From an uncultured Methylococcaceae bacterium (lineage in GTDB: Bacteria; Pseudomonadota; Gammaproteobacteria; Methylococcales; Methylomonadaceae), in the NCBI GenBank assembly GCA_903944165.1, contig CAJAQT010000155.1, positions 1-55,447 of the forward strand: a DNA stretch of 55,447 nucleotides, given 5' to 3'. A program made the position numbers and the translations under genes. Under the pieces are notes generated by a model. That model saw nothing but the letters and a program-made list of their open reading frames with translations. It did no database searches and had not been told where the DNA came from. Shown here piece by piece: positions 13,220 through 17,904 of the stretch (its first letter is position 1; each line of letters starts with the position of its first letter).

Positions 13220-16180
13220 TTAGCTTGCAGCAGTTATCGCGCCTTTAGTTAAGTCAATAGTAACTTCTGCAATGTCTTTACTTTCATTCAGTCGGTTGAT
13301 CTCTTCAAAGGGTATTCTTGCCTGGGTAAACTCATGAAAAATAGCTTTCCAGACTTCATCTCTAAAGACTTTATGTTTTTTGAATTCATAAATACTAAAC
13401 GAAATAATATATTCAGCCATTACACCGCACTCAAGATATACATAGCCATTAAAATATTGTTCGGGTGTTTTAATATCATGAATGCCTTTGACACTTGCCA
13501 GCGCAGTTTTAAGATGACTCAAAATTAATTCTGGCTCATATTTTTGTGGCATGTTTAATTTAAGCCCTATTTTAGAATAATCTTCAATATAATTAACAAT
13601 TTCAGCGGCCGCAACTAAGCTATTTGGGATGCTGATAATATTGTTGTCTAAATCTTTAACTTTCAAGCTACGCCAAGTCATGTCAATGACTTGAACACGG
13701 TCAAAGGTTTTTATTTTAATATAGTCACCAATTGAAAAGGGGCGCTCAAGGTTAACTACAATGCCTGAAAAGATGTTTGCAATATTTCCTTGCACAGCTA
13801 AACCTAAAATCATCGCGAATAAACCACTTGTTGCTAATAAGCTGGATAATGGCTTATTAAATACGAACGCCACAATACAAAAGAAAAATAAGATATAAAC
13901 AAGTCCGCTAGTAAAGTTTTTAATAACGCCAGGAATTTTTCGTTGAGATTTTTTCTCCATCGGAGGCCATAAAAATAGGTTAAGTGCTAATACAATTAAC
14001 GTAGCTGGCACAATCCACCAGAGTGAATCGTAAACCATAACAATTAAATCGATACTATGGTTGGATAGGTTTTCATCAATGGCAATTTCAATGGTTAAGT
14101 TGCCGATGGCTAATAACGATACGTACCAAAAAACCACCCGCATTACCCAAGAAGACGCTAGCCAGAAGAAAATAATATCTTCTTTATACGTCAAATCTTT
14201 TTCGCTGGTAGCATTAGCATGCTTTTTCCAATTGTATTTATTATCAATTAAGCGCGCTGCAATGCTGCCTAATATGCCAAAAATACCTATGTAGACAAAG
14301 TATACGGGGTTGACGTAATCATTGAGGTTAAATCGATCTTCTGCAAGTAGAACTTCATAATCAATTTTAGAGAAATCAGGGCCAATGGCACCATAACCTA
14401 CATACATTGGTTCGCCAAAGGTTGGGATGATAGTAATCGATTGATAAAACTGTGCGGCAAGAATTTTCCAATCGGGAAGAGATTGTAAAATATGATCAGC
14501 ACTTACTTTATCTTTTAAGCTGGTATTACTATTAAGTGCCATGCCTAAGTCGTCAATAACATAAATAACGTTATTTTTATTGAAGTTTTTATGACGGAAA
14601 GATAAGCCTACGACATGACTTCCATGACGAAATTTTTCGGTTGAAAAGTCGATATTAAATTCATGTTTTATGCGGTACCGTTTAAACATAACGCCGTCTT
14701 TTTGATAGGAAAGAACGGGTTTGTCTAGGTTTAATTCTGTGCCGGCATTTATAAACATGAGGTCGGCAGGATCAAAGTTACCGCGATACCGAAACCAAAT
14801 GGAGAAGTCTAATTCAGCTGAGTTTTTAGTGAGATCTAATTTGGATACATCATGCAGTTCGATACCCGTATAAATCACATTGGTTTTGTACATAAAGCGG
14901 TCAATGACATACAGCATTTTGCCAGATTTTAATTCTTCTATGTAATTAACCGAGCTATTTGGCTTGATAGGTTGTAATTGCGTGGGCGCAGCAATAATAG
15001 TTTGACCATCGTAAACACCTATTTGTGTGGTTTTTTGTGCTTCACGATTTTTATCAAACCAGTTTTCACCTGTTGCACCATGAAGTGCTAGATCAGGTGT
15101 GTTTAAGGCGTACAGGTATTTTAAAATAATTTCTTTTTCGATGTTTCCAGCAGTTAACGATTGATTTAAGATTTCTTTTAAAATTAACTTAATTGCATCA
15201 TGACCATAGGCAGAAATCCAGTCTGGATATTCGCCAAAGCGTTGTAAATAGCTGTTTTTAAACCGTTGTTCTTCCGACCCTGAGGTGTCAAATAACAGTG
15301 GCGCAGAAAAAATAATATCGTTAGTATAGCGAGCGATATCCGCTTTGTTGTTACTAATGTCGGCAATTGTGCGGTTAAAGGCATGCGTTGAAACCACATC
15401 GGTGCCAATGATTTTGTTTTTAATATTAGCATCGCGTGCTTTGACAACAAATTTTGCAGAATCAGCCGCATTACCCACAAAGAAGATAGAACCTAAGTCT
15501 TGTTTGTCCTTTATGTTGGCAATAACCTGTTCAATGGAATTTGCTTGGTCATTCGTGTCGTAAGAAAATTCGTAATGAATTTTTGTGCCAAAACGCTCAT
15601 AGACATCGCTGAACTGTTTTGCCATATTAATCCCTTTTTGGGTATTATCATGAACGATGGTAATAATCATTAGGCCTAAAACATTACGAGAATAATTAGC
15701 CGTAAATTGTGCTTGTTTCGTTTCGTTAAATACCGTTGAGAAGAAATGCGGATTATCTTTAAAGGGCGCATTGTCGATTGACGCAAGATTTAAAAAAGGA
15801 ATTTTTTCTTTTTTAACGCTCTCTATGACTGCTTTGGTACTATTAACATCAGTTAAGCTAATAAGGCCAATAACATCATTATTCTTAACAAAATCATCAA
15901 TATTGCTAAGCAGCTGTGGATCGGCTGCAGAAAAATTTTGCACCTTGATATTTTTGGGATTGATGTATTTGGTATTGTCAATTTTTGCAATGAATGAGCT
16001 AATACCATTGTTAATAGACTCTTGGTCATGAGGGTTGGTGGTAATGATCCCTACATGAACATTATGCTTGCTTTCTTTAAACCAAATGCTATAAACAAAA
16101 AATGAAGTGATTGCACTCAGCACAATAATGCTGGCAATAATGATAAAAAGCTTTCTTCTTTCAGACATATTGGTTCTCAT
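13220..16180 (-). CDS. MscS-family channel fused to a periplasmic binding domain and a ligand-gated-channel-like beta domain
   Basis: A 986-residue mosaic. Residues 11-31 form an N-terminal membrane anchor. Residues 41-400 are a type I periplasmic-binding fold of the branched-chain amino acid receptor kind: VHVGIITTNP, then GLISLTDVNSTKAVI, KIPFLNLAS, DLGSIFFVGNAADS and YPDWISAYGHDAIKLI. Residues 425-615 are beta-rich, and the segments YTGIELHDVSKLDL, FSIWFRYRG and FNIDFSTEKFRHG recall the extracellular domain of pentameric ligand-gated channels. About five membrane helices follow (622-805). The last is the MscS pore helix (LLATSGLFAMILGLAVQGNI), followed by the MscS beta domain (SGIVVNLERPFSIGDYIKI, SIPNSLV). 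So the binding modules face the periplasm and the MscS vestibule the cytoplasm. The start could be ATG 16180 or, with GAGA upstream, 16168. The ABC exporter gene lies 113 bases upstream. Ligand unknown; gating by ligand is inference. Confidence 0.88.
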   Translation of the reverse strand: MRTNMSERRKLFIIIASIIVLSAITSFFVYSIWFKESKHNVHVGIITTNPHDQESINNGISSFIAKIDNTKYINPKNIKVQNFSAADPQLLSNIDDFVKNNDVIGLISLTDVNSTKAVIESVKKEKIPFLNLASIDNAPFKDNPHFFSTVFNETKQAQFTANYSRNVLGLMIITIVHDNTQKGINMAKQFSDVYERFGTKIHYEFSYDTNDQANSIEQVIANIKDKQDLGSIFFVGNAADSAKFVVKARDANIKNKIIGTDVVSTHAFNRTIADISNNKADIARYTNDIIFSAPLLFDTSGSEEQRFKNSYLQRFGEYPDWISAYGHDAIKLILKEILNQSLTAGNIEKEIILKYLYALNTPDLALHGATGENWFDKNREAQKTTQIGVYDGQTIIAAPTQLQPIKPNSSVNYIEELKSGKMLYVIDRFMYKTNVIYTGIELHDVSKLDLTKNSAELDFSIWFRYRGNFDPADLMFINAGTELNLDKPVLSYQKDGVMFKRYRIKHEFNIDFSTEKFRHGSHVVGLSFRHKNFNKNNVIYVIDDLGMALNSNTSLKDKVSADHILQSLPDWKILAAQFYQSITIIPTFGEPMYVGYGAIGPDFSKIDYEVLLAEDRFNLNDYVNPVYFVYIGIFGILGSIAARLIDNKYNWKKHANATSEKDLTYKEDIIFFWLASSWVMRVVFWYVSLLAIGNLTIEIAIDENLSNHSIDLIVMVYDSLWWIVPATLIVLALNLFLWPPMEKKSQRKIPGVIKNFTSGLVYILFFFCIVAFVFNKPLSSLLATSGLFAMILGLAVQGNIANIFSGIVVNLERPFSIGDYIKIKTFDRVQVIDMTWRSLKVKDLDNNIISIPNSLVAAAEIVNYIEDYSKIGLKLNMPQKYEPELILSHLKTALASVKGIHDIKTPEQYFNGYVYLECGVMAEYIISFSIYEFKKHKVFRDEVWKAIFHEFTQARIPFEEINRLNESKDIAEVTIDLTKGAITAAS

Positions 16181-16293: not shown

Positions 16294-17904
16294 TCAATTA
16301 ACAATTACACCAGATTCTAATTTAATGATTTTATCAGCTACTGAAAAATAGCGATCATCATGACTGACGGCAATAATCGTTTTGCCTTGTTGTTTTAGGT
16401 CTTTTAACAGCACTTCATAGAAATATTTTCTGAATTCAGGGTCTTGATCAGCAGCCCATTCATCGAACACATAAATCTGTTTGTTTTCCATCATTGCTGC
16501 GATGTAGGCTAAACGCTTTCTTTGTCCTGTTGATAAATCTGTATTAGAGAAACGATTATTTTTGAAGCCTGTTTTTTTCTCTAGTTTCATCGTGCTAAGC
16601 AGTTCAGTCATGCGTTTCTGATCAATGTCATCGACACCATACAGTGATTCAAATAAATGAAAGTCTGCAAAAATACTTGAGTACATCTCACGATAATGGC
16701 AGTAATCAGCTTCTTCTAGGGGTTGATTATTAAAATAGAGAGCGCCAGAGGCAGGGAAATATAGTCCTGTAATCAATTTTACTAAGGTAGATTTGCCGCT
16801 GCCATTACCGCCCACAATAAAGACGGTTTCACCTTGATTAATTTTTAAATTAATGGGGCCAATGCCAAATGTACTGCTGTTGCTAGTGTCGTGATAACAA
16901 AAATTAACCTGTTCGAGTTCAAGCGATGTGAATTCTGGAATTTCAATAGGGGTGTTGCGTAACGGTTTGCTGGCAAGATCAATTTCTGCTTCAAGGCTAT
17001 AGAGATTTTCAACCGCGACATTGGCGCGTCCAAAAATAGGTAATGCGCCTACGACAGTGCTTAATGGACCAAATAAAAACAGGACAGCAACGGTAATTCC
17101 AACAACTTCGTTAGCATTAATGAAAGTAAGAATAGGTAGGGCAAAAATAATGACGGCACAGACAATAAAGAAAGCCGTTTGCGCAAACATTAAATCAATA
17201 ACAAAATTGAGGCCAGTGGCAACTTTAATATCTTTTGCTTCTTTTGAAATAATTTTTATATGATCAAACAGTGCATTATTTTTTTTATGATTAATTTTGA
17301 TTTCTTTAAAGCCCATTAAAATACTATCAATGCCAGTAAAAAAATCAGCTTCTTTTGTTGAAGCTTCATGTAGTTGTTTATTGATGTATCGAGAGTTATA
17401 TAAATACATAAATATTGATAAAACAATGACAATCCCGGTAACAATAAAGCCAGGAATTGATAGCCAAGCAATATAAAGTAAGCAAATAACGACAACAATC
17501 ATTTGTTGGCAGGCATTGATAAGAATAATCGCAGATTCTGAAATAAGGCTGGCGTCTTGAGTAATGCGCGTAAAAATAGCTGCGTGCCCAGTTGTCTCAA
17601 TGAAAGCCAATTCGGTTTGGCGTAGTTTATTGGTGATACGAATGCGGACGCGATCAATCGCATTTTCTGCAATGACAATGGCTTGTTTTAATGAGTATTG
17701 TCGAGTGTAAATGAGCAGCAGAAGATCAGCAAAGAACAGAAAAAAGTTTTGCATTTGCAAATCTTCATTTCTGCCAACAGATGCAGCAGCGTCGTTCATT
17801 ATCATTAATAAATAGCCATTAGCTAATCCTGAAACTAAGGCAGTAAAAATGATTTGGGATTTTGGCGGGCGGCTTTCTTTGCTAAAAAAATCTAATAATT
17901 GCAT
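16294..17904 (-). CDS. ABC exporter of the cyclic-peptide (SyrD/PvdE) type
   Basis: A 536-residue half-transporter. The N-terminal membrane domain (to about residue 295) has six hydrophobic segments. The nucleotide-binding domain has Walker A GGNGSGKS (365-372), signature LSTGQ (457-461), Walker B IYVFDE ending at D481-E482, and the switch histidine H515 in AVSHDDRYF. Size and the features EWAADQDPEFRKYFY and IFADFHLFE match the cyclic-peptide transporter family, which exports siderophore precursors or lipopeptides such as syringomycin and pyoverdine. No peptide synthetase or precursor gene is in the window, so the substrate is unknown. It is followed on the same strand by the MscS-fusion gene (113 bases). 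A dimer in the inner membrane is expected. Confidence 0.88.
   Translation of the reverse strand: MQLLDFFSKESRPPKSQIIFTALVSGLANGYLLMIMNDAAASVGRNEDLQMQNFFLFFADLLLLIYTRQYSLKQAIVIAENAIDRVRIRITNKLRQTELAFIETTGHAAIFTRITQDASLISESAIILINACQQMIVVVICLLYIAWLSIPGFIVTGIVIVLSIFMYLYNSRYINKQLHEASTKEADFFTGIDSILMGFKEIKINHKKNNALFDHIKIISKEAKDIKVATGLNFVIDLMFAQTAFFIVCAVIIFALPILTFINANEVVGITVAVLFLFGPLSTVVGALPIFGRANVAVENLYSLEAEIDLASKPLRNTPIEIPEFTSLELEQVNFCYHDTSNSSTFGIGPINLKINQGETVFIVGGNGSGKSTLVKLITGLYFPASGALYFNNQPLEEADYCHYREMYSSIFADFHLFESLYGVDDIDQKRMTELLSTMKLEKKTGFKNNRFSNTDLSTGQRKRLAYIAAMMENKQIYVFDEWAADQDPEFRKYFYEVLLKDLKQQGKTIIAVSHDDRYFSVADKIIKLESGVIVN

Follow-up and report, generated by a model that had tools for sequence, protein, structure and literature searches.

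Bacterial receptors of the pentameric ligand-gated ion channel (pLGIC) type preserve a ligand-binding domain (LBD) and a core of four transmembrane helices (4TM), and an acidic residue of the Cys-loop and a terminal basic residue are given as their universal features (Tasneem et al. 2004, extract of PMC549065). The same extract describes fusions in which an N-terminal type I periplasmic binding domain (PBP) precedes the pLGIC LBD, and in the extract of PMC9897478 DeCLIC is a pLGIC with an extra N-terminal module. In the MscS superfamily, the bCNG channels combine an MscS pore with a cyclic-nucleotide-binding (cNMP) domain, tension gating is not seen in all members, and subfamilies are distinguished by added domains, ligand-binding domains included (extract of PMC4560390). 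The two kinds of channel are treated apart in the extract of PMC8584932. Here we describe a gene whose product joins them, carrying a PBP and a pLGIC-type LBD in front of an MscS pore. It lies in a 55,447-nucleotide stretch, called the window below, that makes up positions 1 to 55,447 of contig CAJAQT010000155.1 (assembly GCA_903944165.1) of an uncultured Methylococcaceae bacterium.

The module order is that of the PBP-I/pLGIC fusions, N-terminal PBP and then LBD; those fusions and DeCLIC keep a pLGIC pore, whereas the window family has an MscS pore and has lost the Pro-x-Asp (P-x-D) pair of the Pro-loop. With GLIC, ELIC and other solved pLGICs the window protein shares a homologous ectodomain, reached through bridge proteins, but neither the 4TM pore nor P-x-D. 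With Escherichia coli YnaI, MscS, MscK and MscM it has the pore and the beta domain in common. Like a bCNG channel it unites an MscS pore with a ligand-binding domain, but Pfam finds no cNMP domain in it, and its sensors would lie across the other side of the membrane. To our knowledge, the N-terminal additions of MscK and MscM contain neither a PBP nor a pLGIC ectodomain, and the N-terminal module of DeCLIC is not a Liv-type PBP. Because ligand-binding domains are counted among the subfamily-defining additions in the extract of PMC4560390, a PBP-MscS class may already be on record. The word 'mechanosensitive' is absent from PMC549065; MscS does not occur in the pLGIC phylogeny of PMC4795631, whose extract states that sequence outside two signature domains was discarded; and no description of a pLGIC ectodomain on an MscS pore was found in titles and abstract openings of open-licence PMC papers, among the matches listed. 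With PBP-pLGIC fusions (PMC549065) and ligand-domain MscS channels (bCNG, PMC4560390) both known from these extracts, the combination appears new. Since two defining features of a pLGIC, the Pro-loop signature and the 4TM pore, were not found, we assign the family, as judged by sequence, to the MscS superfamily, in which its architecture is new, and do not count it among the pLGICs.

The gene is a single open frame of 986 codons with an ATG start. An earlier note, made from the letters of the DNA, had read it as a periplasmic binding fold, a pLGIC-like beta domain and an MscS pore; its frame proved exact and all three assignments survived. The features are as follows.

13220-16180, minus strand: PBP-LBD-MscS channel gene, 986 amino acids (aa) (open reading frame, domain matches, orthologues).
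16076-16159, minus strand: N-terminal signal anchor or first transmembrane helix, residues 8-35 (hydropathy).
14981-16063, minus strand: PBP of Liv/HAAT type, residues 40-400 (Peripla_BP_6; family profile matches 4gnr, 3e-40).
14321-14920, minus strand: LBD, the domain homologous to pLGIC ectodomains, residues 421-620 (sequence and profile homology).
14615-14632, minus strand: remodelled Pro-loop, residues 517-522, FRHGSH, against [YFW]PxDx[QH] in pLGIC-pore relatives (alignment).
13301-14308, minus strand: MscS module with about five transmembrane helices, residues 625-960 (YnaI/MscS matches, hidden Markov model (HMM), hydropathy).
13754-13852, minus strand: presumed pore-lining helix (TM3), residues 777-809 (hydropathy; within the MscS alignment range).
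13589-13783, minus strand: MscS beta domain (MS_channel_2nd), residues 800-864 (Pfam, E 5e-14).

In Pfam, the protein scores above the curated cut-offs for Peripla_BP_6 at residues 92-361 (E 9e-18) and for MS_channel_2nd at 800-864, and no family is found in the middle domain, either in the whole-protein scan or when the domain is scanned alone. Against PDB sequences, phmmer gives YnaI as the best match (715-864, E 3e-13), followed by MscS (745-866, 2e-10); the N-terminal part matches a Liv-type binding protein (92-387, E 3e-5). By sequence match the N-terminal module is a Liv/HAAT type I PBP and the C-terminal module belongs to the MscS superfamily, which bears out the MscS pore helix and beta domain of the first reading. 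Pfam (E 0.01) finds no match to the 4TM pore model Neur_chan_memb in the window protein or in 31 full-length members of its family. Hydropathy places the anchor at 8-35 and about five helices past the LBD (622-646, 669-701, 712-741, 751-784 and the pore helix at 777-809, the last two overlapping). With about five helices after it, the LBD would be periplasmic and the MscS beta domain and cage cytoplasmic, provided the helix count is right. Between the window gene and its relative at locus L004, the pair for which dN/dS (Nei-Gojobori) is usable while the remaining pairs are saturated, the ratio is 0.059 for the PBP, 0.016 for the LBD and 0.024 for the MscS module. All three modules are under selection, and purifying selection is strongest on the LBD.

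To place the middle domain we searched it alone (residues 405-650) against 301 genomes of the order, and matches were found in 14 of them. The complete PBP-LBD-MscS protein is encoded in ten of these genomes, that of the window among them; in an eleventh it is divided between two contigs, and three have proteins of ∼350-370 aa that read as pLGICs, with an ectodomain containing a P-x-D Pro-loop and then helices. The best of the three, L017, comes from the same family of bacteria and matches the window middle domain with E 4.5e-10 and 32% identity; over ectodomain and pore it matches solved pLGICs in turn, namely a GLIC/glycine-receptor chimera (9e-12), a GABA-A alpha subunit (2e-9) and ELIC (near 1e-7). 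Moreover, a profile of 28 MscS-fused LBDs aligned with a profile of 13 4TM-fused LBDs over 183 columns at a probability of 100 and E 6.5e-40, and the match holds with five PBP-less pLGICs only (99.4%, E 4e-21). All controls (six shuffled profiles, one reversed, a PBP and an MscS) stayed below 1% probability. The 4TM-fused set, which serves as the bridge, reaches GLIC at ∼1e-30 with the pore included and at 4.4e-14 with the ectodomain only. The pLGIC models of Pfam recognise these bacterial proteins poorly: Neur_chan_memb matches 6 of the 13 and Neur_chan_LBD one, and L017 itself has nothing significant (Neur_chan_memb, E 0.95), while its relative L019 reaches E 0.0017. These matches support a chain of homology from the window LBD to the bacterial pLGIC ectodomain and on to solved pLGICs. 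The three strand segments quoted in the earlier note map to residues 437-450, 459-467 and 508-520, and at the sequence level the domain is not the unrelated fold on which its pLGIC assignment would have fallen.

The whole architecture recurs at full length in two named Methylococcaceae metagenome-assembled genomes, the closest named records, at 96% (L004) and 63% identity, and an assembly accident is thereby ruled out. It is kept in many genomes, in single open frames that do not lie at contig ends, and circular plasmid records of Azospirillum carry it too. Chance or an assembly artefact, for which no support was found (the window genome being a 225-contig assembly), is already refuted by these relatives, and we give it practically no weight. 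A profile of ten middle domains had matches in 13 of 369 genomes sampled from the class and in 39 of 398 sampled from the phylum; no relative was found on viral contigs with either the window middle domain or the family alignment. Matches were sorted by HMMs built here for PBP, LBD and MscS, together with a pLGIC-pore HMM. With repeats removed (71 to 64 rows), the set holds 42 LBD-MscS rows (the MscS class, distinct by LBD, some of them cut by contig ends), 18 LBD-4TM rows (the pLGIC-pore class) and 4 that are cut or unclassed, counts that are lower bounds because only the best-matching loci were fetched. The architecture therefore represents a family.

Among 31 full-length members (the window included; 31 of the 44 MscS-class places), Pfam finds MS_channel_2nd in 31, Peripla_BP_6 in 29, a cNMP-binding domain in 6 and a globin in 1. 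Two LBD-MscS proteins have no PBP, L128 and L129. The first (L128:8430-10748, L034) ends in a cNMP-binding domain; the second (L129:654-2936, G244:C209, a longer reading of L021), from the window's genus, has a C-terminal globin (E 8e-16) and is a possible gas- or redox-sensing MscS channel. A C-terminal cNMP-binding domain also follows PBP-LBD-MscS in L116:7753-11547, L084:7308-11453 and L080:8327-11878, so that a chain can hold up to four modules. This MscS pore thus appears able to take sensors on either side of the membrane. pLGIC pores, too, can carry the PBP-LBD head, for example in L044 and L067, both with Neur_chan_memb. The L044 chain matches Liv-type binding proteins (3e-26) and then GLIC over ectodomain and pore (1e-5; Neur_chan_memb 6e-6), and its genome, G332, also holds PBP-LBD-MscS proteins (L028, L040). 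Genome G539 has PBP-LBD-MscS (L033) next to a plain pLGIC-like protein, L043, recognised by our own pore HMM only, with no Pfam pLGIC match. At L112 (G541:C1), a pLGIC-like gene has its LBD (L037) and its pore (L112:8894-9310, a 139-aa frame) in separate frames and is possibly broken or mis-sequenced. In an LBD tree of 56 rows (8 of the 64 were left out, seven cut pieces and the near copy L004), 28 of 38 MscS rows form one clade with support 100/99. At least two pore changes are needed on this tree, while a single MscS clade is not rejected (approximately unbiased (AU) p 0.285) and the placement of L021, L034 and L063 is unsure.

The two classes differ most clearly at the Pro-loop. The P-x-D pair is present in 18/18 pLGIC-pore rows vs 0/41 MscS rows covering the position, and in 12/12 vs 0/27 after clustering at 70% identity. 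The MscS rows mostly end the loop in Gly-x-His or a variant (Gly in 31/42 and His in 26/42 at those two columns), and the window loop, FRHGSH, is without P-x-D. The beta-2 Trp is kept in both classes (all 40 MscS rows covering it and 18/18 pLGIC-pore rows), as are the beta-7 Asp (42/42 and 18/18) and the Trp571 column (42/42 and 17/18). Because core residues are common to both classes and P-x-D is confined to pLGIC pores, the LBD core reads as conserved, while the loop known for docking on the pLGIC pore reads as rebuilt. An equation of window Trp462, the conserved beta-2 Trp, with the orthosteric loop D Trp was dropped, as the register against GLIC gives no support. Loss of the Pro-loop signature would suit an LBD that is a rigid spacer left from a PBP-pLGIC ancestor, with the PBP sensing and the LBD only relaying its movement. 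This spacer reading is unlikely, however: L128 and L129 have the LBD on an MscS pore without a PBP, so that there the LBD must have its own job, and dN/dS is lowest in the LBD.

We consider it probable that the window protein is an inner-membrane MscS-superfamily channel in which a periplasmic Liv-type PBP and a pLGIC-family LBD form a valve that ligand controls or tunes. This proposal builds on what can be read from the alignments: the three modules and the order in which they come, the pLGIC homology of the LBD, its conservation and the loss of the Pro-loop signature. As in bCNG channels, six of the 31 members carry a C-terminal cNMP domain, which offers a precedent for ligand control of an MscS pore. 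A small molecule would bind the PBP, and possibly the LBD too; closure of the PBP would rearrange a ring or cluster of LBDs, which would pull or tilt the first, peripheral helix (622-646), and its shift would switch the helices of the MscS pore from the closed to the open state or back. Going by MscS folds, we take the LBD to be attached to the outermost helix and not to the pore helix, so that any motion of the PBP and LBD brought about by ligand would be passed to the rim of the pore. MscK and MscM have large N-terminal domains that sit on an MscS-type pore. The valve may perhaps still be modulated by tension.

Several observations weigh against this valve reading or against parts of its evidence. 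The MscS-fused LBD profile, searched directly against PDB, had no match up to E 10, which is why the homology to solved pLGICs is routed via bridge proteins. The 18 rows of the pLGIC-pore class were labelled by a pore HMM that was itself built from 11 of them. Singly, the two Pro-loop residues are not foreign to the MscS class, with P at its column in 10 and D at its column in 5 of 41 rows. MscS-class rows are mostly one clade, and the residue counts are not independent events; because the rows are related, the residue pattern goes back to a single event or a few, counted repeatedly. The pre-M1 Arg is found at its aligned column in 18/18 pLGIC-pore rows vs 1/42 MscS rows (Lys in 5 more; Glu in the window), but 37 of the 42 MscS rows, the window included, have an Arg a few columns off, 26 of them as Arg-Asp. 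Hence a firm loss of this Arg in the MscS class is weakened to an insecure one that is possibly an effect of the alignment, which is unsure there. Regarding the binding domain, the MscS-class PBP profile matches Liv-type proteins (4gnr, 3e-40) and, more weakly, metabotropic glutamate receptors. The Thr of the 'SAT' motif, a ligand contact in Liv-type binding proteins, is present in 4/23 MscS-class PBPs vs 7/8 pLGIC-class PBPs and is Ile135 in the window. For the amino-acid-receptor fold of the earlier note, a Liv-type PBP stands by its Peripla_BP_6 match, but 'complete' was too strong; because the Thr is mostly lost, an ordinary amino acid bound in the typical orientation seems less likely as the ligand in the window's clade. 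Finally, pLGICs assemble as fives and MscS pores as sevens, and the subunit numbers do not match.

The neighbourhood of the channel gene offers a candidate partner.

16294-17904, minus strand: ABC exporter of the cyclic-peptide/YojI type, 113 nt upstream of the channel gene (TIGR01194, 386.6 bits, cut-off 286.2).

This exporter is a possible functional partner of the channel. A YojI-type ABC gene also adjoins the L004 channel, and in L079 one lies four genes away. No type I secretion system was found within 5 kb of the channel gene in the window. Across the family, a HlyD homologue lies within 5 kb at 17 of 44 MscS-class places vs 0/13 4TM places (Fisher p 0.006). Seven 4TM places, L112 among them, that had first been left out of the 65 loci with an LBD score under the cut were added as controls; they have no HlyD either, for a total of 0/20, while L131, cut at a contig end, is unclassed in this count. 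Reference genes for the count came from L024, and some flanks are cut by contig ends. The places are the following.

L024, L025, L074, L086-L090, L092, L117, L118, L120-L124, L132: MscS-class places near type I secretion genes.

The 17 places come from eight genera, 8 of them from a single genus (g408), which calls for caution on the link with secretion, and TolC together with a type I ABC gene occurs at one of the 4TM places (L099). The window genome has three HlyD genes over the cut-off, and the richest of 12 genomes has twelve; with 3-12 such genes per genome, closeness by chance would be about 1-4% by our arithmetic. At L074 (= L008; the window's genus, 69% identity), the channel adjoins a set of type I secretion genes (TolC, ABC and HlyD). 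The orders differ, being channel-ABC-HlyD-TolC in L090, L092 and Azospirillum B510, TolC-ABC-HlyD-channel in L074 and ABC-DUF4915-channel-TolC-HlyD in L086, and this is evidence against one inherited block. The gene for the DUF4915 protein of L086 (L086:11799-12833) separates the channel gene from that for the type I ABC protein. Large exoproteins are found near some channels, such as a VCBS protein in B510, and exoproteins of other secretion types are present at L078:2-7656 (a TPS-secreted protein behind ShlB) and L085:11504-19501 (a PATR-repeat protein). Giant proteins also lie beside L091, L092, L119 and L077; that of L092 has no Pfam family, and that of L077 looks, from its start, like a polyketide synthase and not an adhesin. 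A cassette by the channel gene (L074:5478-8599, with BLAST-matching genes in L005) encodes an SPFH/Band 7 protein, a stand-alone Liv-type binding protein and a small DUF697 protein; L079:5020-5571 encodes a small protein that, judged by eye, is similar to the last. Judged by these neighbourhoods, the channel may have a role in the secretion of large surface proteins in many relatives.

This association is also what would be expected of a tension-gated MscS channel whose PBP and LBD serve assembly, anchoring or protein binding, for example docking on a secretion complex or partner, and the loss of the 'SAT' Thr in most members and of the Pro-loop signature would fit such non-gating roles. We think this rather unlikely, as the same PBP-LBD head stands on pLGIC pores and is there most simply read as a receptor, the LBD is under very strong purifying selection, and the cNMP domains point to ligand control of this type of pore. 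The YojI-type gene beside the window and L004 channels, and the type I secretion genes at the 17 places, would also suit a receptor without a working channel, for which the MscS membrane part is a scaffold; it could, for instance, serve the neighbouring exporter or secretion system as a sensor. Such a scaffold is very unlikely: the pore helix and beta domain are well kept, with MS_channel_2nd in every full-length member, and many invariant or near-invariant columns of the family alignment fall in the pore region.

Returning to the ligand-controlled valve, a bolder form of it, which we hold only tentatively and at slightly less than an even chance, is an exchange of pores between unrelated channel superfamilies that bacteria have made and widely retained: a Cys-loop-family ectodomain with a rebuilt docking loop would drive an MscS pore, possibly as a seven-fold ring or across a five-to-seven mismatch, and with the PBP in front and, in some members, a cNMP domain behind, it would form a multi-input ligand-gated valve working with secretion systems for large surface proteins. 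The family is masked by annotation; the Azospirillum B510 relative (L024:5533-8601, WP_012976639.1) is annotated only as an ABC transporter substrate-binding protein, and the channel is thereby hidden. One type of receptor head recurs on an unrelated pore, and each time the Pro-loop signature is lost; nature has in effect set up an experiment on communication between head and pore. With it one can ask if an ectodomain of the Cys-loop type is able to assemble and to signal when it is not part of its usual pentamer, and if an MscS channel can act as a receptor for chemicals.

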